Part shown: in pieces, positions 13,736-52,637 of the stretch | Numbering within the stretch: position 1 is the stretch's first letter | Layout: every line of letters begins with the position of its first letter | Assembly (NCBI GenBank): GCA_026397515.1 | Contig: JAPLUU010000021.1 | Location: 1 to 64,000 of the forward strand | Source of the DNA: a candidate division SR1 bacterium | Lineage (GTDB): Bacteria; Patescibacteriota; Gracilibacteria; Absconditabacterales; Absconditicoccaceae | Direction: 5' to 3' | DNA length: 64,000 bases | Position numbers and translations under genes: made by a program | The notes under the pieces: model-generated | What the model saw: only the letters and a program-made list of their open reading frames with translations | The model's database searches: none | What the model was told of the DNA's origin: nothing

Positions 13736-14488
13736 TTAACTAGGTTTCTTTTCGTCATATACTATGTCTCCATATAATTCTTCGAAAACTTGTATGGGAA
13801 CAAATTGTGTCTGTTTCCCTTCATTGGTTCCGGTTACTTCTACGCCTAGTATACCATTTCTCCCAAGGATCAATCCACCGGAATCACCTGGTTCACCGAA
13901 CATAGTAAACATTTCCATTTCGTTGTGATTATTCAGTGTCCCAAATTTTCTATGGACGTTTCTGACGTTGAATGGAGTCAGCAAAACAGCAGAATCTCCT
14001 ACTATTATTTCCCTTGCAATTTTTCCTCGTTCACACAATGTAGGTAGTCCTTTGATCTTTTCTACTACTAACACTTCTGCATCGTAGAGAGTTGAGCTCG
14101 TCGAACGTGTCCATGATAATTTCGTTCTTCTGTTTTTGAAGTCGGTAACCCAAAGACCATATGACTTGGTTGAATCATAAGGAAAACAGTGCCTGGGAAG
14201 GATAAGATATGACATATTATCCTTGTTACAATAAAGACAACACTGTCCTGCCCATGCTTCACTCTTTTTTTTATCGGACATAACTACATAGAATTCAAAC
14301 ATTGAAGAATCAATTCCTTTCATGTATGCTTCATCGGGGAATGCTTTTCTTTCCCTGACTTTAACACTATTTTTGACAGCATTGATGTTTGATTTTGCTT
14401 CGTCTATAGTGCCGTTATTAGAATTGTTACAAGAGACCATTACAAGGACTATTGTAACCAAAATACCTATACAATAAATTTTTTTCAT
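13736..14488 (-). CDS. Trypsin-like serine protease lipoprotein, non-UGA gene
   Basis: 250 residues. N-terminal lipoprotein signal with Cys20-type lipobox (VLVMVSC), so exported and lipid-anchored. Chymotrypsin-fold catalytic triad is visible: His100 in LPRHCFPY, Asp136 in LYDAEVL, Ser203 in EPGDSGGLILG. Role probably extracellular proteolysis. Own promoter box and terminator. All glycines GGN, stop TAA, G+C higher than native genes; probable acquisition from a standard-code bacterium. Target unknown. Confidence 0.8.
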   Translation of the reverse strand: MKKIYCIGILVTIVLVMVSCNNSNNGTIDEAKSNINAVKNSVKVRERKAFPDEAYMKGIDSSMFEFYVVMSDKKKSEAWAGQCCLYCNKDNMSYLILPRHCFPYDSTKSYGLWVTDFKNRRTKLSWTRSTSSTLYDAEVLVVEKIKGLPTLCERGKIAREIIVGDSAVLLTPFNVRNVHRKFGTLNNHNEMEMFTMFGEPGDSGGLILGRNGILGVEVTGTNEGKQTQFVPIQVFEELYGDIVYDEKKPS

Positions 14489-26600: not shown

Positions 26601-29600
26601 TTTTTCTCCTACAAGACCAATACCTCATTTTACGATACAGAATACTTTTCCTATAAAGTCTGCTACTTTAAGTATTGCACTTATTTCTGGCATTATCTTT
26701 GGAATCTTTGGTGCTGGTGGTAATACCGGAAGATCCATCTTTATACTTGGAATAAACGATGGCGGTTCAGGCAATGTTGGTGGTTCAGGGATGACAGGAA
26801 TTGTTGGTAATACAAAGTCTATGTTTACATTTAAATCAATACCTACATCGATTTCTGGTGGTTCAGGAAGATTTGGTAATTGTGGTAATGGTATCTTGAT
26901 CGGTACAAAATTTATCTTTGGTAATACTATACTCATACCCAAATCCATATGTGAAAGATCCATATATACGCTTGGTATCTTAAATGCTGGAATCGGGAAT
27001 ATCGGTAGTTTAGGACATAGGAATGAAAGACTACATGAAAATGAACCATAGTTATCGTTACTACATTTTGAACATTTTTCTGATCGATTTACTGAGAAAT
27101 CTATAATTGCTTGCCATGTTTTTATTGTTCCTACGAGAAGAATAATCGCATCCACATATTGTGAAAATCTTGTACCATTAACACTTAAGAAATTATTTAT
27201 ACTTCCTACAACATCTGAAATAAGCGCTGAGATCTCGGTTAAATATCTATCTGTAAGGTGTGTTCGTTGATATAATTGTGAAGGGAATTCTTTATACTTT
27301 TGAAGTACTTTGATATTTTGTTTAACTGCTCTTATACTTTCTGCAGTGCTTTCTTGAAATTTTACAAAACCTTGTATTCATCCTACTATATTACTACATT
27401 TTCCTACTCCATCTACTATTGTTGTTATATTGTCTAATTGTGTTTGTTCTTCTGGAGTTCTATTTTTTTCTCTCTTAAGCAACAATATTCATTGTATGCT
27501 TTTCCATTTTGCTAATTTAGCTACTTTTACCAAGGTGTTCTTAAGATTTATTCCCATATTTGCTACGTCACCTCGCATTTTTTCTGCAGTGGTATCTTCT
27601 GGTAGTTTGAGAATTCTATCCATATCGTTTATCTCAGTAGTTATCCGATTTTTTAAACCTTGTGTAGTGGTATCTGTTCATACTAATGTTGCTTGCAATC
27701 CTTCTAATTTAGTCTTCATATCTTGTGCTTGTGTCTTGTCTGTTGTACCACATATTGCTAATGCTTTATTCACTGCACCTTTCCAATCTTCTATTATTTG
27801 TTGTTGTTTCTCCATCCATATCGTCAGATAACTTACATATGCATTAATATCATCACTCGTGAGTGCTGGTACTTTGATATTAAGTTCTTTGGTATCTATA
27901 TTTATGAGTGGTACCTCATTGAACATTTGTTGGATAGCTTCAAATGGATTGCTTCCTACTTTTTGTGAAAGACTATTTAGACTTTGTTTAGAAAGATGTT
28001 TTGTTCGTTCTACTGTCCCTCATGTACTGTTTGGTTTGACATCTATAGCGTTTGCATTGGAGACTCAAATCAACCCTGCGGATTTGTCTGCCGCATTGAT
28101 TGATTTATATGTTTCTGATAGATTTCCTATCTTATCGAATCATTGAAAAACGGTACTCACATCAGGAAGATCAACTTGAATTGTCATCTTGGTCAGATTG
28201 TTTTGAATATATGTTATCTGACTAGTCATCCATTTTTGTACTATACATTTTACTAAACCTTTTGTTTTTGCTCCTACTATTTTGAGCGTGACCTTAGGTC
28301 ATTTTTCAAGAGTATATCCATCATAATCTGTTCATTCTTGTAGTTGTTGTGTTGCGTTACCATAATCTTGATTTGCTGAAACTCTAGTTGGTTCTTGATC
28401 CATAGCAATAAGTCACCATGCATTTCCTTGTGGCATTGCCGGGCTGTAATTCGTCGTACATGATTCGCAGGTATTCTCAAATGAATTTGCAGATGCTATC
28501 TGAAGCGGTGAATTTGCTGTTGTTGCTGTCTGTCCAAAGACTATGGTGTTGGTAACTTTTGGTGGATTGTTACATGTTCATTGTTTAGCTGCATTATTTT
28601 GTGCTGGAGTAACTGCTTCTGTAGGTGCTCATGGATTAGTGTTGGTATTGTTGCATTTTGTCAGTGGTGGTACAGCGAATACTACACAGTTTCCTCCCAA
28701 ATCACTAAATGGTTTTGGTAATACAACGGATGTAGCATAAGGTCCAAAACACATAGCTATTCCTAGTCCGAGTGTAAGGGTCGGTGCAATATATAATCTG
28801 AATTGTGATGAATACATTCCTCATGGTGCTCCAAGAAAAAATCCATCTGTGTCTGTAGGACCTCACTTTTGTGGAAATCCGAAAATTCCAAAAAATGGAG
28901 TTGGTCAAACAGGTGTTTGCAGTGTTGCTGGAATACTTAAGAGTGGCATCCCTTTTCCTAAAGTTTTATTGAGTGTATTAAATATTGGATAGAGTGGACT
29001 TGTTACTTTTGGTACACATCAAAAAACATGATAATCTCATGGAGCTAAGAATGCTTGATTAAATGGTACAGGAACTCACTGACATCATTTTCCTTTTGAT
29101 AAAGAAAATCATTGGCAAAGTCATTCGAGTGCTGCGTCCAATTTTTTGGATACTCCCGCTGTTGCTTGATCAATAAAATTCATACCGACGCTTAGATTTA
29201 CTCATAATCATCCATTGGTAAGCAGAGAACTCAGCAAGTTTTTTGCACTTCGTGCTTCCATATTTTCCATTCCCGGTACCGAAGAAACTGCTTCTAAACT
29301 ATCTACGTTTGCTAACGTATCTATCAAACCACCAATTGCTCCTTGTGTTGTTGCTTTTGCACCACTATTGTATGCATCCATTTCTACCTGGATATCATCA
29401 TATATTTGATCATATTTTCTTTTGTCTGTTGCATTGTTGAAAAATATTCGTCTATTTTTTTGACATGCATCAGCAGGACTTATTGCAATGTCTGGTAATG
29501 TGTCTTTATATTTGCTTTGTGGTAATAAATCTTGATCTTGTACTTCTATGTTTGTGATAGGTTGCCCTTGGTAGTTTACTTTGTATGAAAAACTTAGTTT

Positions 29601-32600
29601 ATCTCAAGAATTGAGTTGGATATTATCCATTACAAATTGATATCATTCTGGCCCATTCCAATTGATAATTATTCATCATGTATTTCCTGACGTAAAAACT
29701 AATGATGGAATTTCTTTGGTATCTGAATCTGCTGGAATATCTCGTGGTCACAATAATTGTTCTATATACGTAAGCTTATTATTATTTTTCTTTGAAACGA
29801 TGGTGGTTTCGATAACTACTTCATCACCTTGTCTCAACACTCATCAATTGATATCTACGTATTTTTTATATACACTGACTATGTCATTATTATTTGTTTC
29901 GCTGATAGGAAGATACGTTATTCCTTCTGGTGGAAGCGTTTCATACACTGGTGATGTAGTAAGTGGATTGTCTATATATGCTAATTGACTAGCTCATGAA
30001 GCAATCAATGTATCGTTGTTTGCGACCATAGTTTTGATGTCATTCATAGTTTGTATTTTGAGTGCTGCTAGGTCTGTTGATGACATATTTTCTGTACCAT
30101 CAGAACCATTACTATTTTTTTCTTCATCGATACCTTCCGTTGGAAATGGTATTCCTTTTCGATGAATAAGACTGCCGTCTTGGGCGTAGAGATTTTCATT
30201 TATCTTGATGCTATAACGTTTGACTGTTTGATAATTATCTTTTTGTCTCGTATACCAATTAGCGTCACAAGCTCCGGTAATAGTGGAGAGATAATTTGCT
30301 CAATTGTTCGTGTTTCCTCCATAGAATATTTTAATATCACCAAAAGAATCATTTGTTACAATGTCTATTTTTCCATCTTTATCCATATCTTCTATAAACA
30401 TCTGTTTGATGCTTGAAAAATCATCAGGAGTCGGATTTTTCTTTCCTGGTTCTGTACTCGTATTAAGACATATATTTTTTCCATCGACGGGAAATATTCA
30501 TTTATTATTCAAATATACTATTCATTTATTATTTGTTGTAAGGATAACAATATCTTCAAATCCATTTCCATCTACATCGCCTACATGTATCTCTTTTATC
30601 GGTTCTGCGATAATCATCAGTTCTTGCATGTTTTTATATGCATCTGTTCCTCCATAATTTTTGACTAATTTCACTACTCAATCTGTATACACTACGAGAA
30701 GATCTTTGAGTCCATCATTGTTGAAATCGATGGGGATCACTTTGAATATTGTCTTGTCTGGATCAGCGTAAATGGTCTGTCCAATTGATGAATCAAAATC
30801 AGTATTAGGTATGTTTGGATTTTTTTCTCTTCTCTCAAGGAGAGGATCTCAGAAATTTATGAGGAATTGTGATCCATATGGTAGTGTAGCTTCTCCGACG
30901 GTTTTCCCATTGGCAAAATTTGCAATATTTTTGAAATTGCTGGTAAATCAGATACCTAATAATGCGTCACTACTATCTTCTATAGAAGCATATCATTGTT
31001 TGGTAAATGCGCTATTGTTTATATAGATTCCTATTCCTTGCGTGTTGGTAGATCATTCGCTGAAGATATTTGTAGTTCCATAGGTGATTGGATCTTGGAT
31101 ATCTATATTTGCTTTGTTTGTTGTAATATTATCATTGCTCCAGATCATACATTTACCTATTGTTTTCCCATTTAGTGTCATGGTATATGTACTCATATCT
31201 CCTAGCATTTCGTTGTCTGCAGTAATTGTTAACGTTTGATCTATCGTCATTCATTTGGTAAGGTCAAGGATATCTTTTCCATTGATAGTTATCTTCTTTT
31301 CTGTTGCTTCATTACCAGTAATGATACTATCTGTCGGTTCTGGTATATAAATGAGTGTATTACTATCTTTTGTAAATTGATTTATTGCTCAACTATCTGC
31401 TAGTGTTTTAATCTTGTAATTATTCGTCAGACCAAGATGTATCTTTGCTATCTCCGGCATAAGCACTACAAATTCTTTATTTTCTATAATCATCGTGGAT
31501 ACTTTGGTGTTGATGCTTTGTATCTGTGCGTTTGGATTTATAATATATTCTATTTGTTTGATTTTACTTGGATCAACTAACTCTGTCGTAGTTGCTAGTA
31601 ATTTCTCTGATTGGTTGGTTATGTTGTTTATTGTTTTATTATTTTCAGAAAAATATCATCGTTGATTTCCTCGATCCGTTCAGAAAAGATTGAGATACAT
31701 AACGTTGAGTCATGTCTTTGGTATAACGCTGTCTTGGATGATAAATCTTTCGTATCCTGCAGTCTGATCAGAAAGTGTTCTATCTTTTATATATGCAAAC
31801 ACATATCATTCACCACCTGCGCCTGTAGCAGTTATGGTATATGTATATTCTTGACCTGTATAATTAAACTCTGTAACATCGCTTGTAGCGGCTCATATAA
31901 CTCATACTTTTATAGTACCTGTTATTACTTTATTGTTTCGGCTATCCACTACATTGATGGTTCCTTTGCTACCTGTTGTACTCGTAAAATCCATTCTGCT
32001 TTTTTCCAGTTTCAGTAGTACGGTTTTTGCTGCTCATGGATTGACCGTTACTGGGATATTGATAGGAGTTACTCATGGAATATTTATCGTAATAATATCT
32101 GTTCATGCTTTGAAACTTGGATATAGGGTAATGGTCTTTTCGCCATTATCACTATCCATAATGACAAAGTCATTAGATTTTATAAAACTGAATTGATTTT
32201 TAGTTATATTATTTTTTACTATAGATTTTACTTTGACCGTTCATGGAATTAATAATCACTGTTTACTTACGATATTTACTACGTTGTTTAATGGCTTGTT
32301 GTCTTTTGTCCTGATTTTTATTACGAGACTTGGAAGTTGATCCGGTCTGATTTGTGGTGTTCCGTCTGTGTCTTGATATTGTATACCGCTTTCATCTCTT
32401 GGTAAAGTAAAGTTTATCTTTGGTTGTAATGTTGGTACATTGTTTGGAAGTATATTTACTATACCTTTGACTACATTGATAACTTTTGTTTTTACTTTAG
32501 GTGTTGTTTTTATATCTACTCATAATCTTGGTGCTAAGTTTGGTGCTATGGTAACTGTGATTGCTTTGGTGTCTGTATTGCTTTTTGTTCCTGTACTTAT

Positions 32601-35600
32601 AATAGGTGCTTGATAGATAAATGACGATGTAGCAAAATTATCAAACTGAATATTTGCGTTTGCGCTGGCACCATCATAAAATTTTCCGTTATCACTACCG
32701 ACACTGATGGTATATGCTTGTATGTTTTGTCCTATACTATTATCATGACTATCTTTAGCGCTTATGAGTAATGGCAGTTCTGCTCACTCCATCACTATAT
32801 CTGGTGATTGGAAGTCTATGACATTAATAGGTCCTGGAAGAATATTGATTACTTCTTGTTTAATGATACAGGTGTTTCCTATTGATGGACACAATTCTAT
32901 CTTCAATGCTGTACTTCCTGCTTTTTTTTGCTCGTTGGGTACGATTTCAAACGTATATTCTTCTGTGTTTGGATTGTAATATTCTTGTGCTTTGGTTGTA
33001 CATATATTACTACTGAGTTGTTGTCCATTTCTTCTTATCCCAAAACAATTGTCTCCTGTTCATGATATTTTTACATTTACCATTCATACATTTTGTGCCA
33101 TGTTTATTTTTATTTGTGCGTTTCCTGTATTATCTACTCCAATATTATCGTCTACGCCAATTATTGTTTTGTCTATATGTATTATAACGTTATTGTTGTA
33201 TCTTTGTAATATTTCTTTTATATTGCTTGGTGCATCATTGATAATCGTTTCATTATTTGGTCATCATCGTTGTGCGCCATATTCTTTTCGTCCGCTACTG
33301 ATTTCACTACCTATGTCTGCTACTTTTTTTATACTTCAAAATACAACTGGTCCAAGTGAATTTTTGAAACTTACTTTGATATCAAATGGTTTCTTGAGAA
33401 TTTTCTTTGCCCAACATTTCATTGCTTTTGCCCATGGTGATGACATTGGACTCAGTATAAAGAGTGGTGATGATCCATTACTATCTACTCATTCACATTC
33501 ATCTACTTCAGCTTGGAGATCTGCAGCACTTGATTCTACGAAGTTATTCGCTGTGGTTTTTGGTTTTTCTTGTGCTGTTTGTATCGATTTGATAAATGCT
33601 GGTGTGTCTTTGGCTGAAATATAATCTTCACCATCAGAATTTATATATGCGACCTCATATCCTGTAGTATTATATGTCGGTGTAATAAATTTACCTTGAT
33701 CGTTTCCTTTGGTAAGATAGGTGTTTGTTACCTGACTAACTTTTCTATTTATATCAAAGCTGGATTTGATCTCAGCCATATCTTCCGCAACGGTGGTTTG
33801 TTGTAATCTTTCCGGTCGTGTACTATTTTGATAATAAAATAATTTTGCTATCATATCCAATTTTTGATCTATTGTTGTTGCCTCTGTATTTTTTCCATAA
33901 ATAGCATTTTTTCCATATTCAGGAGCGTTTTCTAATGTATCTAAAAATCCTATCAGTTGGGTTATAAAATAATCTGTAGGTATAGGATTGAGTCCATAAT
34001 TGTGGATACTTGCTATTGGATTTGCTAATGCATCATATCATCCAAGAAAATTAAATTGGGCAGCTAATGATGTGTGGTATGCTGTCCTATTTTGTCGTTG
34101 TGTGTTTAATATGGTATTATATTCTAATGCTTTACCTCTCAGATACGCTTTGATTGCATCTCTAATCTCTTCTGTTGTTTTTAACACAAGTTTATCTCAA
34201 ACTTTTTTATATACTTCCACATCATAAAGATTTGGATAATTTAATCTTACGTTGTTTCAACCGATACCTTGGAAAGTAATATTTCTGATGCTATCGATCG
34301 GTCTGTCTTGTGTTGTCAGATTCATTCCTTTATTTTTTTCTTTTTTGTTCGTGTCCGTTGAAACCTCAAAGGTATTCATTATTGCTTTGGTTTGTGCGAT
34401 CTCTATGAAAATGTTTGTCGGAGAAAATGATTGATTGATCTCTACAAATGGTTGTACTTGTCAGTTATCACCTGCATAACTATGGATCTTATCTATTTTG
34501 TCATTGATAGTGGTAATAGTAGAGACGGTTACCGTATTTATTATGTTATCCAATACATCACAAATGGTTTTGTAATAACTTATTGTACATCCAGCTCCTG
34601 TCTGTAATACTGCTATAGCATTTCTTTTTGCTATTATCCCTGCTATATAGGCACTATTAACTTGTCCGATTGTACTGTAAATTCATGATGCTATCGTAAA
34701 TGTACCTTTGAGTATATTAATGTTGGTGTTTATGGTGTTGAAATTTTGTGTTATATCTGTTTTCCAGGTATCCAGAATTTCTACATTTTGTTTTTTAAAT
34801 TTTTCTGATTGAATGATATCATTAAAATACTTAACCGTGTTATCTATGCTTAGATCATTTATATAGTTTCATAATCCATCTAATCCTTCATTGATCTTTT
34901 GTATTCTTCCTGTTATTTCTAATATTTTTGCTTGATTTAGATTTTTCCCGCTCCAATCATTTGCTTTGGCTACTACTTGTGCAGGACTCATCGAATTAAG
35001 ACTTCATGCAGCGAACGCTGTTATCTCTCCCATGCCTGCGTTACCCGAATCGACTAATTTTTTTAACTGTGTCAGATTAGAAACAACTCCTGTCATATCT
35101 GTACTAGTAGCACCACTGAATTCTATATTTTTACTCAATATGTCCGTTTGTGTTGATGTAAGATCATTGGTAACATTATTGTAAAATATTTCTAATGGTG
35201 AACTGTCTTTGAATTTATATATGTCTGTATCTGAAATCTGATCTCGTGTTGGTGAAATATTCATGATTCTTGAATCAATTGTCTTGTAGGTATAGGCGTG
35301 TCATTTCATATTACATCATAATATATCTGTAGGATATGATCGATCATACAATACTGCTTTTCCTCCATATATAGTGTGTTTGTTTGCTGCTGCATAGAGT
35401 GGATAGAGTGTGAAAAAATTATTTTGTGCATAGGTTTTAGGTGGGTTATATCCCCGTACAGGCGATTCGAGATTTGTATTGGTTGGTTTCTGGTTGGTAA
35501 ATTTTAAATTGACACCATTTGCATTTGGACTGCTGATATATGAAAAAATATTACCATATTTATTTTCAATTTTTTCTTTTACGGCGAATGTTTCTTGCAT

Positions 35601-37490
35601 GATACTTGCATAATTTTCTGCTCAGATATATGAATATGCACCTGTCTGTGCTGCATCTATTTTTCTAGATCCTGCAATATCATAAATAGGAAATTTTGCA
35701 TCTTTGTAATTGTAATTTGTCAGTTTATATGTCGTGGAATCTATATTTAGAGGTGAGGCTCATCCTCGATTTCTTTGACTAAAGTCTGTCAATGATTCAC
35801 ATCCTCATTGTAATTGTGGATCATTTGTTTTACACTTATCTTGGTCTGCACTGTCCTGAGGTTTTCGTGTTTTTTTCCATCGGATACAATACCCGAAGAG
35901 GTGTAAGTTACAATCCTTGTTCCGAAGATCTTGTTTGTTTATTTTTAATACATTATAGAGTGCTAATTCATCTTTGGTATTGTTGATATTGTATCATCTA
36001 TTTGCTTCTACTTGTGTTGAAAAAATGTTGTATGATCATCCTATAGATTTACCTGTGCTCGTGGTAATTACCTGTCCAGAAATTGAGTTAAGATTTTGGT
36101 ATGTTCATCTATATGCACTGGTATCCTGAGCATTATTGATGAGATTTGCGTTCTCACCAAAATAATAGTTTTGATAATAATTGTATTTTGTTCGGACACA
36201 TTTTGGTGGTGGTAAACCTGTTACTCGAAATGTTGGAGGTATTTTGATATCTCATTCAAGATCCAATTCACTCACGGGAACGGGTATAGTCATATAATAT
36301 TTTTCTGTTTGTATTTTATCATTCAATCCTTTTTCTAAGACATCATTCATTTGGATGAGGAGCGGTTGTACATTATTATCTATATCTCCTAGCAATCGAT
36401 TATCTTTTTGGAGAATTTTGTCGGTGAGTGAACTGTAGTCGGTGAATGTTTGTCATGATGTGCTCTTATATCGTCTTGCAAGTCCAGATACATTATTTTT
36501 TATGGTTGAAAGAAATTGTGTACTCATAAGTCCATCATATCCTTTGAGCATTTCTTGTGTAGCTTTTTTGAGTGTGAGCGTCGGCATTTCCGATGTCGTG
36601 TTTTGTGATAATCCTGCGGCGACACTATTCCTATCTCCTATATCATTGGCATATGCTAATAAATCTGGGTCTGTCGTACTCTGGAGATCGGTTTTTAAAT
36701 TACTTCCTAAGGCAAGTGTACTCTCATTGTGTTCATCTTTGAGAATATTGAGTAAGAGATTGTTGAATCTATGATATCCTATGTCTTGTGCAAAAATCAT
36801 ACTATTGGTATAATATTTTGTGTTTTCTGGAATGAAATATTTTTTGAGTCCGATAAAGTCTTCATACCGAATCGCTTTGTCTACGAATGTTGTCGGATGT
36901 TCATAATATGATTTTACTTTGGTGAAAAAATCGTTGTATTGTGATGTAGCATCAAATTTTATAATTCCATGCCAAAGTTCTGCTTGTCCATTGGGATTAT
37001 TGTTATACACGAAAAACTTTTTATTTGTATCATAGACAAATTCTTGATTTTCGAAGTCTACGTATGGATAAATACTTGGATAGATAAATCCGTTATTTTG
37101 TACTACAGGTAATGGAATATCTCCTATCAAAATAAGTCCTACTAATTTAGAGCTTGCATCTTTGAGTCATTCAAAATACATATTTTCAAGCATCTGTGAG
37201 ATCTCATGTGCTTTGAGTGTTTTCGTATCTATTGGTAAAACCACTGCTTTGCTATTACCTATTTTACCTTGGATATATTTAGTCGTATATCGGATTAATC
37301 CATTATTACCATCACCTTTGATGGTATCATAAATATTTTTGTCTACAAAAACCGCTACAATGTTGGTGGTGTCACCTGTTGTAGCTGCATAAACTTTTTT
37401 TCGGTCAACAAAAATTGTGTTTTGTAAAAAGTATGATAATCCATAGAGGATAATAAATATTCGTACAAGAAGTTTCTTTGATCAATTCAT
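23652..37490 (-). CDS. Giant secreted surface protein, 4,612 residues
   Basis: One continuous frame of 13.8 kb; I read every codon from 37,490 to 23,652 and met no TAA or TAG, with about 95 in-frame TGA. N-terminal signal anchor (KKLLVRIFIILYGLSYFL). Residues ~35-150 form an alpha/beta module (VAVFVDKNIYD, GLILIGDIPLPVVQNN) resembling the gingipain-like C25 peptidase N-part, low certainty. ~740-1,300 helical; ~1,330-2,130 repeated beta-sandwich, Ig-like; ~2,250-2,370 FG-GAP/VCBS calcium repeats (DFNNDGLKDLL, DVDGNGFEDIV, DMDKDGKIDIV), another near 4,005; ~3,500-3,600 Pro-rich (PEPPTLPEPP). Probably adhesin-like; precedes pilin genes. Confidence 0.85.
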
Positions 37491-37690: not shown

Positions 37691-38731
37691 TTATTGAATT
37701 ACTAATTTCTTTGTTGTTTGTTTGTTATTATATGTATATTTGATTACGTAAATACCAGGCAGTAAGCCAATAACTGATATATTTCCATTATTTATAGCTG
37801 TTTCTTTTACTAAGCTACCATTCATGCTATATATACTCACTATAATATTTTCCGATGTGTTGAAATGAATTACATCGTGAACAGGGTTTGGCCAAAAATT
37901 CACTTCTGCAACCATTGGTTTTATTGATACAATTGTTGTCATATTAATTATTGAATCAATACGTATGGAGTCAATCAATAATGAATATATTTGATTATCT
38001 GCTTGCACGTTGGTGGGTTGAAGGGCCACGTTATATGCAGAACTCCATTCTTGTGCTGGTGCCCACATGTTCAAATGAAAATGTGTCGGTGCAGTGGGAA
38101 CATTTGTAGATGTTCTTACCAATATTCCATCAATATACCAGGTTACTTCGTTTGGTAACCATCTTATCATAAATACGTGATAATCAGTAATTTGGTTAAC
38201 AATTTGTGAAGAGTCAGGATGACCTACACCGAGAGGTTCATTATTGTAAATATTTGTATGCACATAATTTGATTGGTTGGTTAATAATTCCCAATCAATC
38301 TCATTATGAATAGTGTTGCTTGGTGGAATTAAGTCGAATGAAAATAGTCCTGCCACTATTCCGCCAATCATTGGATTGTTGATTTTGGCTCTGATACTGA
38401 TAATTAAACCATTACCGGGTGCAAATGTTTTTTGGGTAATTAGATCAGTTCCATACATTGAAAATCCTGTCGGATTATACGTTTCTAAATTAACATACAC
38501 ATTGTCGTTGATGATACTTGGTAATGCAGCTGGAATACATCTAAATTGTGTTCTTCCGACGTATGTGCCGTCAGAGGGGCCAGTCCACGTAGGAATGTAC
38601 CACCAAGCGCTGTTTATTGATGTTCCATTAAATAGATCTCTAAAAATGTTAACGGTTGTTTGACCTTTTACTGTTACGGTTGCTATACTGAAGATAGCCA
38701 AAACGATTACTAATTCTTTAATTTTTTTCAT
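37691..38731 (-). CDS. GH16-like glycoside hydrolase with T9SS-type C-terminal tail, non-UGA gene
   Basis: 346 residues. Signal peptide MKKIKELVIVLAIFSIA. Beta-jelly-roll domain with the GH16 catalytic motif NEIDWELL (Glu144, Asp146, Glu148), so probably cleaves beta-glucans or galactans. C-terminal ~75 residues match type IX secretion sorting domains: NFWPNPVHDVIHF, IYSMNGSLV, GLLPGIYVIKY, KKLVIQ. That tail is a Bacteroidota trait and would be useless without a T9SS. Stop TAA, no TGA codon. Its promoter box begins 12 nt beyond the stop of the HD gene. Confidence 0.85.
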   Translation of the reverse strand: MKKIKELVIVLAIFSIATVTVKGQTTVNIFRDLFNGTSINSAWWYIPTWTGPSDGTYVGRTQFRCIPAALPSIINDNVYVNLETYNPTGFSMYGTDLITQKTFAPGNGLIISIRAKINNPMIGGIVAGLFSFDLIPPSNTIHNEIDWELLTNQSNYVHTNIYNNEPLGVGHPDSSQIVNQITDYHVFMIRWLPNEVTWYIDGILVRTSTNVPTAPTHFHLNMWAPAQEWSSAYNVALQPTNVQADNQIYSLLIDSIRIDSIINMTTIVSIKPMVAEVNFWPNPVHDVIHFNTSENIIVSIYSMNGSLVKETAINNGNISVIGLLPGIYVIKYTYNNKQTTKKLVIQ

Positions 38732-40102: not shown

Positions 40103-42280
40103 ATGAACGAAACACAAACACCAAAAACACCAATTAATTCAACACCTATTACGCCAAAACAACCTTTACCACAGCCACCAAGACCAATACAACCAGCAAG
40201 ACCAGTGACACCCGTACAACCAAGACCTGTATCGTCTGTTGCTCATCCACTACCATCAAGACCGACAACGCCTATTGTTCATACATCAGCTCCAAGACCT
40301 ATACCATCACAACCCGTTAAGGCGCCTGTATCGGCTTCATCACTTGCACCAATGCAATGAAATCTCTCTATAGATTTCACCAAAAGAAACAACGTAAAAT
40401 CTACATATAAAGGTAAAAGACCACTTCATTCACAGGCACCAAAAATGGATTCAGAAGCATTTATTCGTCAAAATAAAATTTCGACACTTGCTGGAGTTAA
40501 AGATCTCAAAAAACTTATCAAAAAAGATGAGATTCCTGTAAAAGTAGGTAACCTTATAGGTTTAGAACAAGTAGGTCAATGTATGTTCATCGAATATAAA
40601 AATGATATTGTCATCGTCGATGCAGGAATGGAATTTGCCGCTAATGAAGAATTAGGAGCAGATTATATTATTCCTGATATAGCCTATTTGAAAAAAAATA
40701 AAAGTAAAATCAGAGGTATCCTTATTACTCATGGTCACTTGGATCACGTATGAGCCATCAAAAATATCATAGAGGAATTATGATATCCTATTATTTATAC
40801 TACACCCTTGGCTTTGGGAATCATTAAAAAAACATTTGATGATATCAAAAAAGCAAATTTGATAAAATATAAAATCATCAATCCTGATCAAGATTTGATA
40901 AAATTATGATGTTTTACTGTCGAATTTATCAGAGTAAATCATAATATTCCTGAAAGTATGGCTTTGGCTATTTATACTCCAAAAGGAATAATTTTTGATT
41001 CTGGTGATTTCAAGATCGATCATACACCATCAATTGATAGACCTACAGATTTGGCAAAGATTGCAAGAATCGGAACTGAAGGAGTAAGGCTTTATACATG
41101 AGATAGTCTTGGAGCACAAACGCCTGGACGAGCAAAATCTGAAAAAATCATATGAGAAACCGTTGATTCTGAAATCAAAAATACCTCTTGAAGAATGATT
41201 ATCGCTACGTTTGCTACCAATATCGGTAGAGTTATTCAAATCATCAATAGTGCTATTAGATACAATAGAGTAGTCTTCCTTTCTGGAAGATCTATGATCA
41301 ATAACGTTGATATCTGTCAACAACTTGGCTACATCACTGCCCCTAAAGGTATGATCCGTAAACTTGATAATGAAGTAAATAATATGCCTGATGAAAGAGT
41401 TCTTATCCTCTGAACATGAGCACAATGAGAAGAATTTGCTGCGCTTACTAGAATGTCTAGAGGTGAACATGCACAAGTAACACTCAAAAAATGAGATACT
41501 ATCCTTTTGTCTTCATCTACAATCCCTGGAAATGAACTTGCTATCGATAAAATGCTCAATAGCTTGCTTTCTAAATGAGTAGATTTGATTACCAACAATG
41601 AAATGGATGTCCACACAAGTTGACATGGATACGCTGAAGATCATAAATTATTCCTCAGTCTCATCAAACCTGAATACTTCTTGCCAGCATTTGATTCTAT
41701 GAAACATAGATATGCACATAAAAAACTTGCTTTGGATCTTGGTATTCCAGAAGAGAATATCATTATGCCTGTAGAAAATGGTTCTATCATCGAAATGTAT
41801 GATGATGTCGTTTTGATCTGAGATCAAAAATTGAAATTGGATACTATCATGATTGATGGTAAATGACAATGACATATGTCTGGTGAATACGTTATCAAAG
41901 CTCGTCATATTATGGCGCAAAATGGAGTTGTTTCATTGATTTTCAAGATTGATACCAAGAGCAATGAACTCGTTGGAAATATCCAGATTGAATCTAGAGG
42001 TTTTGTTTATTCTAGTGAAGTAAAAACTATCCATACTCAAATTGTGGAATTTGCTAGAGCAAAATATAATGAAAATCAAAAAAAACGTATGGATATCAGA
42101 GATAATCTTAAAAAAATGAAAGAAGATCTTGGTGATTTCATCGAAAAAATTATTTGAAGAATTCCTATGCTTATGCCAATGTATGTCTATATTAATAGAG
42201 AAGCTCAAAATGGTGGTGATGTCACTCCAGATGAAGCTGTTGTAGGTATGACTTTGGAAGAACAAGGATATGATGACTAA
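40103..42280 (+). CDS. rnj: Ribonuclease J with proline-rich N-terminal extension
   Basis: 725 residues. Metallo-beta-lactamase/beta-CASP RNase: ITHGHLDHVGA (His210-x-His212-x-Asp214-His215), IIFDSGDFKIDHTP, TNIGRV, SSSTIPGNE, VHTSGHGYAEDHK, then a C-terminal beta domain. It processes and degrades RNA from the 5' end. Residues 1-~110 are a disordered extension dominated by Pro, Thr and Ser (QPPRPIQPARPVTP) absent from ordinary RNase J, possibly a docking tail. Many TGA glycines. Followed by a terminator. Confidence 0.93.
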
Positions 42281-42306: not shown

Positions 42307-42331
42307 GCTCCGACATTGTTCGGGGCTTTTT
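42307..42331 (+). terminator. RNase J terminator
   Basis: 7-bp stem GCTCCGA / TCGGGGC, 6-nt loop and a T-run. The next cassette's promoter box begins 2 nt later. Confidence 0.85.
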
Positions 42332-42332
42332 A

Positions 42333-42360
42333 TTGAAACGAGAAAACTTTTTGATATATA
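42333..42360 (+). promoter_or_regulatory. Cassette promoter box (copy i)
   Basis: TTGAAA, 16-nt spacer, TATATA, then A-rich leader to ATG 42,391. Same geometry as the other boxes, one mismatch in the -35. Confidence 0.6.
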
Positions 42361-42390
42361 GAGTAAAATAAAAAATTAAAATATACATAT

Positions 42391-42768
42391 ATGGAAAATA
42401 AAATTTCCCATCTTCCTGTTTTAAAAATTAAAACTGGAAACTATTTCCCAGAAATTTCTAGATGGATGCTTGTATTCTGTCTGATAGGATTAATTCTTCA
42501 TTTACTGGTCAATTCAATATTGTTTTTTGGGTATATATTTGTTTTAACCGGTATATTTGATCCTACTGTCGGTGTGTATTTGAATAAAATACCATTTAAT
42601 CAAATTAGTGCCTGTATATCGCTAATCTTCTTTGTATTTCCGCTTATAGTATGTTGTATAAAGTCATTTAACCGTTTATGAAATGGGTACTCTATATTCT
42701 TACATCAGCCGTGTGTGTTTTCCACCGGCTTTTTTTATTTCAGAATCCCGATAAAAATTATCGAATAA
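42391..42768 (+). CDS. Small membrane protein whose original stop is TGA
   Basis: In the standard code this is a 96-residue protein with two or three membrane helices (WMLVFCLIGLILHLLVNSIL, FFGYIFVLTGIF, ACISLIFFVFPLIVCCI) ending FNRL at TGA 42,679-42,681, with a terminator 26 nt later. In this host's code the TGA is Gly and translation continues 29 codons through the hairpin to TAA 42,766. All five or so ordinary glycines are GGN. Together with the promoter box this marks an acquired gene carrying a recoding scar. Function unknown. Confidence 0.65.
42707..42737 (+). terminator. Terminator lying inside the read-through frame
   Basis: Stem AGCCG-TG / CA-C-CGGCT with one bulged C, followed by seven T. 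It is placed correctly for a gene ending at TGA 42,681. Confidence 0.75.
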
Positions 42769-42893: not shown

Positions 42894-43883
42894 ATGGCAA
42901 ACAATTACAATCACACGCTGACATGGTCGACGACCAGAATTACTGTTTTAGAGTATTGTAATAAAAAATACTATTTCAATTATTATCCTCATTCTTTGAG
43001 AAGTCTTAATGAAGAAGTTTGGCTTACTGCGCTTTTGCTCAAAAATCTTAAGAGTACAGATATGCGAGTGGGTGAAAAGACTCATCATTTGTTGTCTGAT
43101 TACTTAAGAGCGTTGAAAAAATGACCACAGGATGCAGAAGCTATCCAAGCACATAAAGACCGCGTTATTAACGAAATGAGAACAGAATTTGAAATCTCTA
43201 AAACAAGAGATTATACAGCCTATGATAGAGATCGTAAATTCTGACTTTCAGAACATTATTACGGAGAAAATATAGATGATAAACTCGAAGAAGCTATTCA
43301 AAAAGTTGTTCATAACCTTGATGTTTTCTTGGAAAGTGATCGAAATCAAAAAGTACAACATTATTTCACTACCGCAAAAACGGTCTATGTAGAAAATCCT
43401 AGAGAAAAGGATTTTGAGGGAATGAAATTGAATTTGTACACTATCCCAGAATTGAGAGCAGTGAATGTAATGGCAGCTCCCGACTTCGGTGTCGTTATCT
43501 CTGACAATAAATATCTCATTATTGATCGAAAGACAGGACAAGAAAAAATGGATTCTGATTGAGTTTCCGAACAGCTCAAGATCTATGCATTGAAAATGCT
43601 TTTGAAATCCAATATCAAGATCGAGAATGTCGAAATAGAGGCGTATGAAGTCTACCTTCCAAGTCTTCATCAAATTGGTGGTAAAATAGAAAAAGCTGAT
43701 ATTGATCATATTGTTGAAAAATTGAAAGAGGATGTGGAATATCAAAAACAATTTCTTGAAGATGGTGATATTATCAAAAATCAACCATTAGCTCCTAGTC
43801 ATTTTGCGAGAACTAATAGCGCCAAAAAATGTGCAAGCTGTACATTTAGAAAAGTCTGTGAAGATTTGAAAGCATTTGAATAA
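42894..43883 (+). CDS. PD-(D/E)XK nuclease of the RecB/Cas4 type with Fe-S cysteines
   Basis: 329 residues. Nuclease core PDFGVVISDNKYLIIDRKTG holds the D...(D)xK catalytic pattern. Four cysteines in the Cas4/AddB iron-sulfur arrangement: Cys22 (LEYCNKKYYF) and C313-x2-C316-x5-C322 (KCASCTFRKVC). Likely single-strand DNA exonuclease in repair. No cas genes or CRISPR repeats are nearby, so a Cas4 role in adaptation is not supported. TGA glycines present (KKGPQD, KFGLSE, SDGVSE). Confidence 0.88.
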
Positions 43884-43993: not shown

Positions 43994-44404
43994 TTATTTT
44001 TTAGTATCAGCGTGTATAGTATCTTCATGTATGCTGGTAATAATACCTCTCATTTCTTCTACCTGGGTTTCTCCATCACCATGAACTCTTTCGATGTATG
44101 GTCCCTTGATGGAAACAACTTCCCAAGATATCATCTCACCATAATTATGCATGACACATTTCAACTGAACAGTATCGTTCACTTTCGCCTTATCTTTATA
44201 AGGGAAGTCAATTGATTCAGCCTCTGTGTATCGTAACCAGTATTCTCCTCCTGGTGAATTAGCACCACCGTCACCCAAGTTATTCAATGCAAATTTTGGC
44301 CAGACGACTGTGATGTTCATCATCTTTTTTAGTTGTGGTTGTTGTACGTTGTTACAACCAGCAATAATGATTATAATCATTATTATAAAAATTTTATTTT
44401 TCAT
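43994..44404 (-). CDS. Small lipoprotein, non-UGA gene
   Basis: 136 residues. Lipoprotein signal peptide MKNKIFIIMIIIIIAGC with lipobox IAGC. Mature part is beta-rich (VNDTVQLKCVMHNYGEM, GEYWLRYTE). Function unknown. TAA stop, no TGA codon, own box (44,422-44,449) and terminator. Divergent from the MutS-like gene. Confidence 0.8.
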   Translation of the reverse strand: MKNKIFIIMIIIIIAGCNNVQQPQLKKMMNITVVWPKFALNNLGDGGANSPGGEYWLRYTEAESIDFPYKDKAKVNDTVQLKCVMHNYGEMISWEVVSIKGPYIERVHGDGETQVEEMRGIITSIHEDTIHADTKK

Positions 44405-44625: not shown

Positions 44626-46374
44626 ATGAGAGAATTTAAACTTTTTCCCGATCTTAAAAAGTATTCCTATGTATCCAGTACCCAACATATTGGATTGGAT
44701 AACTTCTGCAAAATGATAGTGCAAGATTATTATCAACAAAAACGCTTTCCCGGCCAGGATAACATGATTGGTGAGATTATTTCATCTGGAGTCAATTTGT
44801 TATCAAGAATCTCTACTGACCCCAAGGAAATTATTGCCTTGCAGGATGCTGCCAAATTATTGATGCGCAACATCACCAAAAGCAAACGAACAAAACTTCC
44901 TCAAATGAATGATGCCACGTTTTATGGCGTAAGAAATAATCGTGACGGTATTGATACGGAAACACATAGGAATGCCTTGTTTACTTTCACAGACTTAAAA
45001 CAAGTTGTCCCTGTCCTGCGACCGGCCACTAAAAAGTCTTTTGAAGAAGATAGCCTATCGATTATTGATGATCTCTATGAAATGGTCAAAAGACCGGTTG
45101 AAGTACATTATTCCTTTGATATCAAAATCAAACGGGAAGAAAAACAGACGTATTCTGTTGTTGTTGTAACCGACTTATCTCCCAACAAGGAAAATTCCAT
45201 CTTCAAACCGTACAAAGGATACTCTAAATCCCATTTTTATACCAATAGATATCAACAAATAGAGTCTTTTTACGGCGATGAAGATACTCTTAATTTTCGT
45301 GATAGTTTCTGGGAAATGATAATTGGTAAATTCAACTTCAAGGATTTAGCAGTCGGTAGCAGTAAGAAATATACCATGACTGCTAAACTCTATTCTCATC
45401 GTGGAACATCGACGCTTAAGCTTGCCTATGCAAAAAATGATGTATATGTCGGACATTATCTAGATAAACATAAGAGAGGTAACTATAGCTTTACCAAGAA
45501 AAGAAAGACTCTAACCGATTCTCAGATATACAGTCTGATGAAGATATATCCTTCCGTATACTATAATCCGATCATCTTTCAAAGTCACGAGGTGACGGAA
45601 AGTGTTATCGAATTTGTTAGGCGCTTTTGTAGCAATCACACCCAGGAATTGTTTCAAATCGCATTGGCCGATTGGTTTACTAAAAGAACATATGTTTTCC
45701 CAGAGATACTTATGGAACCAAATGGCACATCTACACAATTTGTGGCTAGTGGCTTATTAAGTCCTACCCTGGTTGCTCAGAAGATTGCCGTGACACCAAA
45801 TGATGTCAGGATAGATGCATATCATCTTGGGAGTATTATTACTGGAAGAAATGCTGGCGGTAAAACATCATTCATCGATATGATTGGTATCACCTTGCTG
45901 TTGGTGCAAAATGGTTGGCCGACATTATCAGAAAAGCCTGCCGTACTTAAGCCATTTCAGAAAATTCACCTCCATTATATCGAACCCAATGTTATATCCA
46001 TTGGTAAAAGCCGATATTTGGATGAGCTTATACGCATCAAAGAATTACTTCCAAGACTCGTCATCGGTGATCTTATTTTATTTGATGAACCATTTACCGG
46101 TACGTCATACAAAGATGGAAAACGGCAACTCAAAAACATTCTCACAATCCTTGCAAAAACAGATTGTAAAGTACTGTGTACTACACATCTTTCTGCAATC
46201 ATTCCTAATGTGAAAACTTTGCCTGGATACCATAACTTACATGTTGGACCCGATTATACCGTACAAGCAGGCGGGGATGCCTCTTCTCACGGTACTGAAA
46301 TTGCCAATGCCCAAGGGTTATCCTTTGGTGGCATGAAGCAATTGGTAAAACATTTGTATAAGAAAAATGAGTAA
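44626..46374 (+). CDS. MutS-family ATPase without mismatch-binding domain, non-UGA gene
   Basis: 582 residues. The C-terminal ~200 residues are a MutS-type ABC ATPase: Walker A TGRNAGGKTSF (around residues 406-416), Walker B LILFDEPFTGT (Asp487-Glu488), H-loop CTTHLSAIIP. The N-terminal ~380 residues do not show MutS domains I-III (no Phe-x-Glu mismatch motif), so it belongs with MutS-related proteins of unclear role rather than MutS itself. Codon usage unlike native genes, no TGA codon, TAA stop, own promoter box and terminator. Probably acquired. Confidence 0.85.
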   Translation: MREFKLFPDLKKYSYVSSTQHIGLDNFCKMIVQDYYQQKRFPGQDNMIGEIISSGVNLLSRISTDPKEIIALQDAAKLLMRNITKSKRTKLPQMNDATFYGVRNNRDGIDTETHRNALFTFTDLKQVVPVLRPATKKSFEEDSLSIIDDLYEMVKRPVEVHYSFDIKIKREEKQTYSVVVVTDLSPNKENSIFKPYKGYSKSHFYTNRYQQIESFYGDEDTLNFRDSFWEMIIGKFNFKDLAVGSSKKYTMTAKLYSHRGTSTLKLAYAKNDVYVGHYLDKHKRGNYSFTKKRKTLTDSQIYSLMKIYPSVYYNPIIFQSHEVTESVIEFVRRFCSNHTQELFQIALADWFTKRTYVFPEILMEPNGTSTQFVASGLLSPTLVAQKIAVTPNDVRIDAYHLGSIITGRNAGGKTSFIDMIGITLLLVQNGWPTLSEKPAVLKPFQKIHLHYIEPNVISIGKSRYLDELIRIKELLPRLVIGDLILFDEPFTGTSYKDGKRQLKNILTILAKTDCKVLCTTHLSAIIPNVKTLPGYHNLHVGPDYTVQAGGDASSHGTEIANAQGLSFGGMKQLVKHLYKKNE

Positions 46375-46825: not shown

Positions 46826-47134
46826 TTATTTGGCAGGTTTAGGATCTGGATTCTTTATAAATGCTTTAGCGATCCCCAGAGGAATAAAATAACACATCAA
46901 CAAACCTAATAAACTTACTGTCCATTTGACCATTTCTGGTTCATTCATGTCTATATTTTCCTTTGATAATTCGTTCAATTCTCCGATAATCCATACAATT
47001 GTGGTAACAACCATAACGGATTCCCAGGATAAATTCCAGGAATTTCTCAAGAAAAATGCAACGATACTTAGAACACAAGCGATCATAAATAATGGGCTTT
47101 GTAACGCTTCGATTGATAAATTTATAATATCCAT
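46826..47134 (-). CDS. Small integral membrane protein, non-UGA gene
   Basis: 102 residues with three probable helices (PLFMIACVLSIVAFFL, VMVVTTIVWIIGEL, WTVSLLGLLMCYFIPLG). Stop TAA, no TGA codon. The length and topology are loosely phage-holin-like but I cannot support that. Own box at 47,179-47,206 and terminator. Confidence 0.75.
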   Translation of the reverse strand: MDIINLSIEALQSPLFMIACVLSIVAFFLRNSWNLSWESVMVVTTIVWIIGELNELSKENIDMNEPEMVKWTVSLLGLLMCYFIPLGIAKAFIKNPDPKPAK

Positions 47135-51518: not shown

Positions 51519-51572
51519 ACACCAATGGCTCATAATCGTAGAAAACAAAACAAAAAATTTAATATTTACAAG

Positions 51573-52637
51573 ATGAAGACAAACAATTTAGTTAATGCTG
51601 AAAATTCAGCAGCAGATCTCAATCAGAAGAATTACACTCCTGAAAGCTGGGCCGCTTTACAAGCAGCTCTGAACTTACCGGAAACAAGTGAAGCAGAAGC
51701 TGATGAAAAGGCTGACACAATTCAATCCGCCATTAGCGAACTTGAACTTGTTGACGCTAAGGATCAGCCCAAGAAGAAAAAAGGATTCAATAAAAGCTGG
51801 CTTTTGCTGCTTGTGTTGTTACCTCTGGGCTACTGGTACTTCTTTACCGGTGGTACTTCCAAGGTTCTTGACCTGACTGTTGCTCCTATTACTGGTGAAC
51901 CTGGATTGGTTACAAAAATTACTGTCAAAGCCAATTTCGAGAAAGGAATATTGGATTATGGTGATGGTACCGATTCACAAATGACCGGTAATGGTAATAA
52001 AACTATAAGCTATGGTCCCGTTGACCACGTCTATAGTGACACAGGAGTCTTTGTAATCACTGTTAAAGGTATTTGGGGCAAGGATTCAACTGTTAAGACC
52101 GTTGAAATCCATGTTACAACACCGACACCAGCAGATACAACTAAACCTGGAACAACACCTGGTACAACCCCTGGTACAACCCCTGGAACAACACCTGGTA
52201 CAACCCCTGGTACAACACCCGGAACAACCCCTGGTACAACACCTGGAACAACACCTGGAACAACCCCTGGTACAACACCCGGAACAACCCCTGGTACAAC
52301 ACCTGGCACTATTACTCCTGGTACAACACCCGGCACTATTACTCCTGCCAAACCAAAACAGAAATTACCATTCCATTATTCGGTGATTATTGGTTCGGAC
52401 ACTACCCGGTTTCAAACCGGCGATACTACCACTATGGTATTTGATCAAAAGCCTACATTGATTACTGATTTTACCGGACAAACTGGTCCTCAGACCAAGT
52501 TCCAATCGGGAAATTCTAAATTCGATGTGAAAAAAGGTTATACTCTGATTCAGCGCCCTGATGGGAAATGGGTTATGAAGGGTGTCGGTGGCGATGAGCC
52601 GGCCGTTAAAGTTGGTAGGTACAAAGTTAAGTACTAA
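51573..52637 (+). CDS. Membrane-anchored PKD-domain protein with TTPG repeats, non-UGA gene
   Basis: 354 residues from ATG 51,573, chosen because an A-rich leader precedes it; ATG 51,525 is also open and adds 16 basic residues. FIVAR-like helical module (NYTPESWAALQAALNL), one membrane helix (SWLLLLVLLPLGYWYFF), a PKD-like domain (LDYGDGTDSQ, DHVYSDTGVFVITVKG), then about 17 tandem Thr-Thr-Pro-Gly units (52,140-52,345) and a C-terminal beta domain. TAA stop, no TGA codon among many glycines. Probably a cell-surface spacer protein of foreign origin. Confidence 0.8.
   Translation: MKTNNLVNAENSAADLNQKNYTPESWAALQAALNLPETSEAEADEKADTIQSAISELELVDAKDQPKKKKGFNKSWLLLLVLLPLGYWYFFTGGTSKVLDLTVAPITGEPGLVTKITVKANFEKGILDYGDGTDSQMTGNGNKTISYGPVDHVYSDTGVFVITVKGIWGKDSTVKTVEIHVTTPTPADTTKPGTTPGTTPGTTPGTTPGTTPGTTPGTTPGTTPGTTPGTTPGTTPGTTPGTTPGTITPGTTPGTITPAKPKQKLPFHYSVIIGSDTTRFQTGDTTTMVFDQKPTLITDFTGQTGPQTKFQSGNSKFDVKKGYTLIQRPDGKWVMKGVGGDEPAVKVGRYKVKY

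Follow-up and report, generated by a model that had tools for sequence, protein, structure and literature searches.

A small membrane-protein gene with TGA at its stop position in a bacterium in which UGA should encode glycine

We found that a small gene in the window (the whole 64,000-nt stretch of DNA that was analysed, from a genome that we call G000) carries a TGA that stands, on well-supported sequence comparisons, where the stop of the gene belongs, in a cell in which UGA should be read as glycine. We give a probability of roughly 0.6 to the reading that this is an accessory gene for a predicted two-helix membrane protein, that it belongs to a dispersed class of TGA-free genes, and that at its terminal TGA the ribosome would insert glycine and run on along a non-stop mRNA, so that tmRNA would tag the product. 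The gene and its surroundings in the window are laid out as follows:

40103..42280, plus strand: native left flank, ribonuclease J, with 17 TGA codons and its own terminator at 42307-42326
42333..42360, plus strand: promoter-like element, TTGAAA (42333-42338), 16-nt spacer and TATATA (42355-42360), by consensus match only
42361..42390, plus strand: A-rich leader, A at 19/30 positions (A fraction 0.63)
42391..42678, plus strand: TGA-free frame of 96 codons, a membrane helical hairpin as predicted by AlphaFold2
42679..42681, plus strand: TGA in the stop position of the gene, read as Gly in code 25
42679..42768, plus strand: code-25 continuation of 29 residues, which crosses the terminator and ends in TAA (42766-42768)
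42707..42736, plus strand: intrinsic terminator, bulged hairpin and T-run, by fold energy and bulge-tolerant scan
42894..43883, plus strand: native right flank, PD-(D/E)XK nuclease-family gene, with 3 TGA codons

There is no in-frame TGA in the window gene before position 42679. When the gene is read with code 25, the frame continues to the TAA at 42766-42768 and gives 125 aa (96, a Gly and 28 more); the 96-residue form ends in ...FNRL and the code-25 form runs ...FNRL-G-NGYSIFLHQ.... No in-frame TAA or TAG occurs between the TGA and the T-run. The terminator consists of a hairpin at 42707-42730, whose stem has a bulged T, followed by a T-run; the stretch folds with –10.6 kcal/mol, a value equalled in 0/200 shuffles. 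A strict scan overlooked this terminator because of the one-base bulge in the stem, and a bulge-tolerant scan detects it. Frame and fold analysis thus bear out the preliminary description of a small membrane-protein frame that ends at TGA 42679-42681 with a terminator after it, although the distance is 25 nt and not the 26 nt given there. The addition of 29 residues that it proposed stands as an open frame to TAA 42766 but not as the main product, which would need transcription through the terminator. The absence of TGA before codon 97 is no evidence by itself, because 5 Gly codons at ~25% TGA give 0.75^5 = 0.24. The product is predicted to be a two-helix membrane hairpin (AlphaFold2 helices at residues 20-53, 58-66 and 69-95), a model of low confidence because the mean pLDDT is 68. 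In a Pfam search, only SUR7/PalI (PF06687) matched the protein, at 17 bits and below the cut-off of 29.6, and an NCBIfam search gave no match.

Across the 51 ORFs in the window that reach 90 aa, TGA makes up 325/1298 Gly-type codons, and these ORFs stop at TAA (45) or TAG (6). The only gene of RF1/RF2 type in the genome is prfA-like (TIGR00019, 442 bits with a cut-off of 423; TIGR00020, 253 bits with a cut-off of 370). We did not find RF2 in the genome, an absence that is not absolute because the genome is 95% complete. A tRNA with a UCA anticodon, named SeC by ARAGORN, is located on contig 5, and the genome has a tmRNA gene whose tag ARAGORN gives as AKTLNRAFALVPSYSLAA. Because native ORFs contain in-frame TGA, the release factor gene is of RF1 type only and a UCA-anticodon tRNA is present, UGA should be glycine in the host, as had been proposed, and the UCA tRNA would be charged with glycine. 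A reassignment of UGA to glycine (code 25) is described for Absconditabacteria and Gracilibacteria (PMC4032931).

We scanned the window and 20 further stretches of the same genome (460,900 of 1,209,926 nt, 38%) and found 155 hairpin terminators, 99 of which lie –6 to 60 nt past a code-25 stop, mostly at 15-35 nt. Another 28 fall within an ORF, and in three of these cases a TGA-free frame of 90 codons or more runs up to a TGA located 18-25 nt before the hairpin (with a per-site null of 477/130,173, P = 1.5e-4 for at least three). One is the window gene. The second, ORF-B (L114:3743-4537, minus strand), has 200 aa to its TGA and a terminator at 18 nt (–13.2 kcal/mol); the third, ORF-C (L129:17925-18521, minus strand), has 135 aa to its TGA and a terminator at 21 nt (–14.2 kcal/mol). 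The A fraction of the leader is 0.63 in ORF-B, as in the window gene, and 0.67 in ORF-C, and none of the three has a backup stop before the terminator. A further gene, ORF-D (L128:11959-12651), ends in TGA-TAA. The window gene, which had been called the exception, is therefore one of a small set. No ordinary native gene of this TGA-plus-terminator build was found in the 460,900 nt. In G008 (388,746 nt), 0/21 terminators lie inside ORFs and there is no such gene, though the promoter and leader class described below is present; in the G004 and G002 samples, TGA-ended genes come from the promoter and leader scan, not from a terminator scan of the whole sample.

The parallel genes have relatives that show what stands at their ends. 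The G004 and G006 homologs of ORF-C occupy the corresponding locus and have TAA at the very position of the TGA in G000; TAG is the stop both of a tandem copy in G006 and of the copy in G061 (L156), which belongs to another genus. The members in G006, which form a tandem pair (L155, L157), and the one in the second genus are all TGA-free. The ORF-B ortholog in G004, which adjoins SSB there, has 56% identity (SSB has 96%) and likewise a terminal TGA; by eye, a hairpin-like stretch and a T-run can be made out ~20 nt past the TGA. Neither ORF-B nor ORF-C has a match in plasmids, phages or viral contigs, and ORF-D has none in phages.

To characterize the class, we compared leaders in the 460,900 nt. 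The mean leader A fraction is 0.34 in 356 TGA-bearing genes (0.55 or higher in 11/356) and 0.61 in the 20 TGA-free genes that have 8 or more GGN codons (0.55 or higher in 12/20; Mann-Whitney p = 7e-11). In four genomes, TTGAC is present at most 130 nt upstream of 49/81 TGA-free genes with A-rich leaders as compared to 88/815 TGA-bearing genes, and TATAA typically begins 22 nt after the first T of TTGAC. The Bacteroidota-type element TAnnTTTG shows no enrichment (6/101 class genes and 74/815), and by these elements the class promoter belongs to the sigma-70 type and not to that of Bacteroidota. Adenine 5' of the start codon is a feature of Bacteroidetes translation (PMC6847099). Trp content is 1.4% for the class, equally 1.4% for the four TGA-ended genes, and 0.5% for native genes; by promoter, leader and Trp content, the class looks non-native. 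The window gene has all of the features of the class (a TTG...TATA promoter, an A-rich leader, a TGA-free frame and its own terminator), and the offset from TTG to TATA is identical to that of the class promoter, although its –35 element is TTGAAA, not TTGAC. It was also found by a scan for promoter and leader, which required only a standard-code frame of at least 60 codons. That scan yielded 59 genes, whose frames end in TAA (47), TAG (5) or TGA (7); three of these seven, the window gene among them, have a terminator, and the four without one (in G002, G004 and G008) are probably native genes.

Four class members and a further TGA-free gene, all ending in TAA, are located elsewhere in the window:

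13736..14488, minus strand: class member, 250-aa lipoprotein-like protein, TGA-free
37691..38731, minus strand: class member, GH16 protein with T9SS sorting tail, TGA-free, A-rich leader
43994..44404, minus strand: class member, 136-aa lipoprotein-like protein, TGA-free
44626..46374, plus strand: MutS-domain-V protein, TGA-free
46826..47134, minus strand: class member, 102-aa membrane protein, TGA-free, class promoter

The genes at 43994-44404, 44626-46374 and 46826-47134 have no homolog between the PD-(D/E)XK and GT genes in 8/8 relatives. That all other cassettes end in TAA, as had been stated, holds for the TGA-free genes with A-rich leaders within the window and fails genome-wide. TGA-free proteins with a type A T9SS sorting tail occur in three genomes of this genus, in which UGA should be Gly (window 37691-38731, L188:16872-18956 and L169:44-1141). 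Two of them (G002 and G004) share one locus, beside genes that we take, from reading their sequences, to be uS12/uS7-like. SprA, part of the T9SS machinery, was matched in 0/9 genomes, where a control query was equally silent.

TGA is absent from ribosomal protein genes as well, which makes TGA-freedom weak evidence on its own and strong translational selection an alternative to foreignness; the TGA-free ribosomal protein genes are without the class leader and composition. We rejected high expression as the cause of TGA-freedom in the class, from which ribosomal protein genes differ in leader, Arg codons and Trp. Codon usage was likewise set aside as decisive proof of foreignness: the score of the window gene is modest, and the 26 scored codons of its tail are at least as foreign-like. 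Elsewhere in the window, a 370-aa gene at 51525-52637 has strongly non-native usage (42 GGN, 0 TGA, G+C 43%) and a leader that is not A-rich, and a predicted protein of 4612 aa with 96 TGA codons (23652-37490) takes up more than one fifth of the window.

Ribonuclease J and the PD-(D/E)XK gene are neighbors in 9/9 genomes of the genus, and the slot between them differs among the eight relatives of G000. It is empty in G001, G002, G003, G005 and G006. In G004 and G007 (L049, L052) it holds a different small frame of ~67 aa with a common NPQI(C/S)NELAHIL stretch. In G008 we found an 85-aa two-helix protein whose gene has a leader A fraction of 0.60 and a TAG stop 21 nt before its own terminator, which has a like stem with a single bulged T. 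When the G000 and G008 inserts were aligned as DNA, the score was 42.5 as compared to 20.8 ± 3.6 for shuffles, and was reached by 0/200 shuffles and 0/390 window segments; the G008 homolog reached 45, as compared to 40 for the highest-scoring of 90 hydrophobic null segments. Because protein identity is only 22-26%, homology of the two genes is probable, not certain; their C-termini do not align cleanly. A profile of the two proteins found only those two in 353 genomes of the taxonomic class, and matches of the window protein to relatives at E 0.003-0.05 were judged to be chance between hydrophobic helices. G000 and G008 are not sisters in a tree of RNase J and the nuclease, which is valid within the genus only (the outgroup G011 is misplaced), and the family would either have been present for long and been lost repeatedly or have entered repeatedly. 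It is the orthologs of the parallel genes and, more weakly, the G008 homolog that support the TGA of the window gene as standing at the stop position, together with the hairpin at 25 nt, which is within the 15-35 nt typical of the 99 genes with a code-25 stop.

We identified six families in which a second species has a homolog of a TGA-free gene at the corresponding locus: the window gene/G008, ORF-B/G004, ORF-C/G004 and G006, L112:14662/G002, L118:19015/G004 and L188:16872/G004. Protein identity in these families is 22-56%, while that of the native flanks is mostly 60-96% (the exceptions, one flank in each of two pairs, have 52% and 58%). In the partner genes, TGA accounts for 0/75 Gly codons (5 + 7 + 5 + 7 + 14 + 5 + 32). 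In seven native G000-G004 pairs, 17/106 conserved Gly positions with a GGN codon in G000 have TGA in G004, and at 16% the chance of 0/75 is ~2e-6 (hand arithmetic, with codons taken as independent). A dissenting pair exists: G000 L128:17416-18186, the partner of a TGA-free G002 gene with the same neighbor, has TGA at 3/20 Gly codons, all at codons 14-16, and with this pair included the count is 3/95. The 75 codons leave out the TGA-free pair L127/L168 (partner 0/17), whose loci differ, and the 76-aa pair L161/L150 (0/5), whose flanks were not checked. TGA-free G002 genes that we take, by reading their sequences, to be guaB- and purA-like match TGA-rich G000 genes (20/46 and 35/54 TGA). These G002 genes form a tandem (L195:7688-10557; 0/47 and 0/44 Gly codons) distant from the G000 counterparts, and would be either an import or part of a mis-binned contig.

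The reading that we prefer for the window gene runs as follows. The gene would be transcribed alone, from its own promoter to its own terminator; the slot that it occupies, between ribonuclease J and the nuclease gene, is variable. At UGA 42679 the ribosome would insert Gly and continue, since RF1 does not read UGA and the UCA-anticodon tRNA does. Transcription would normally stop at the hairpin, which would leave an mRNA with no in-frame UAA or UAG; since intrinsic termination would make the T-run the 3' end of most transcripts, a ribosome is expected to stall there, and tmRNA would tag its product. The 125-aa form would arise from read-through transcripts only, and we infer that the TGA descends from a standard-code stop.

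The preferred reading does not fix when the TGA arose, and two other explanations differ on this point. A resident gene may have lost its stop here, from TAA or TAG to TGA, or the assembly, which is of metagenome type, may contain a single-base error; we regard this as possible but rather unlikely. A single transition turns TAA into TGA; the stop is TAG in the G008 homolog and TAA or TAG in homologs of ORF-C. However, such events should strike ordinary native genes too, and the scan found none of this build there; 38% of the genome contains two further cases, with class-type leaders throughout, and the TGA of ORF-B is common to two species with separate assemblies. The preliminary description favored a recoding scar, a recent cassette from a standard-code donor with the donor's TGA stop unrepaired. 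This is only partly supported: the TGA at the stop position and the non-native-looking class hold, whereas the recent arrival lacks support, and we regard recent import as unlikely. Class composition and leader unlike those of native genes, the Bacteroidota T9SS tails of some class genes and the three neighboring TGA-free genes that are without homologs between the flanking native genes of the 8 relatives would suit import. Against it, the diverged homolog in the same slot of G008 ends in TAG, the class promoter is not of Bacteroidota type, and ORF-B keeps its TGA in two species while ORF-C stands at one locus in three, so at least these two are not new. We found no donor homolog of the window protein, and thus none that ends at the same residue in a standard-code donor, in genome contigs, viral contigs, plasmids or phages; the protein scans of genome and viral contigs pick up close relatives only. 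One phage match with E = 5 was judged to be chance. A repeat search for integron-type cassettes gave only short or AT-rich repeat families.

Two readings concern the product instead, and we consider both very improbable. If the hairpin were not a working terminator, the 125-residue protein would be the real product; UGA should be sense in this cell and the frame is open to TAA 42766, but the hairpin is terminator-like in strength and position, and the G008 homolog stops ahead of its like terminator. The even less probable of the two is a deliberate non-stop gene with its output under tmRNA control, for which arfA and brfA are a precedent (PMC8012679). The layout is the same, tmRNA is present and the terminal TGA is conserved in ORF-B; however, homologs of ORF-C, like the G008 homolog, end in proper stops, neither Pfam nor NCBIfam links the protein to a rescue factor, and the product is a predicted membrane hairpin.

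A bolder idea, which we hold to be improbable, is that the class is a second dialect: genes kept readable in the standard code by selection, whose products would be made, at some stage at least, by standard-code ribosomes, for example those of a host cell after delivery of DNA or mRNA. If true, this would explain why partner genes have 0/75 TGA despite 22-56% identity next to flanks at 60-96%, why the terminal TGA of ORF-B survives in two species, and why Bacteroidota T9SS-tail proteins lie beside the same ribosomal protein genes in two species. The sigma-70 type of the promoter argues against it, and the shared loci may instead reflect repeated import into the same slots.

Taken together, these data provide natural genes in a recoded bacterium in which the old stop would still be visible, and a promoter and leader signature that finds more of the class. 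A code change as a barrier to gene import has so far been argued mostly in general terms or from engineered E. coli; with visible old stops and a class signature, the barrier becomes directly testable. They also sharpen a puzzle, namely that class genes are TGA-free at fixed loci across species while their neighbors gain and lose TGA freely.

The host, with RF1 only, a UCA tRNA and in-frame TGA throughout its native genes, should use the reassignment described for Absconditabacteria and Gracilibacteria (PMC4032931); the present case concerns genes that have TGA at the end but not within the frame. The literature already contains the suggestion that foreign genes are garbled where UGA is reassigned: for Vampirococcus, UGA read-through was put forward as a shield against foreign DNA (PMC8080830), which likewise predicts aberrant read-through of UGA-ended foreign genes. 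In the relevant part of that paper the suggestion comes without gene examples, whereas here specific genes can be named, in which a terminator precedes the next stop. Among open-licence papers, we did not find chromosomal genes of this TGA-ended kind described. Phages of code-25 hosts that are compatible with code 11 carry backup stops (PMC10746230); their TGA-free genes are readable in both codes, and TGA with a second stop is the arrangement of ORF-D. Unlike the phages of that report, we describe single chromosomal genes, and no backup stop precedes the terminator in the window gene, ORF-B or ORF-C. The non-stop genes arfA and brfA have a terminator before a usable stop (PMC8012679), a layout that the window gene shares as judged from its sequence; unlike them as described there, it has no rescue-factor homology and would be non-stop through a code mismatch, not through a buried terminator alone. 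In recoded E. coli, UAG-ended genes are rescued by tmRNA (PMC6207430). There, as proposed here, a gene's former stop has lost that function and its product is tagged by tmRNA; in that engineered strain UAG is unassigned, whereas in this natural one UGA should encode glycine.
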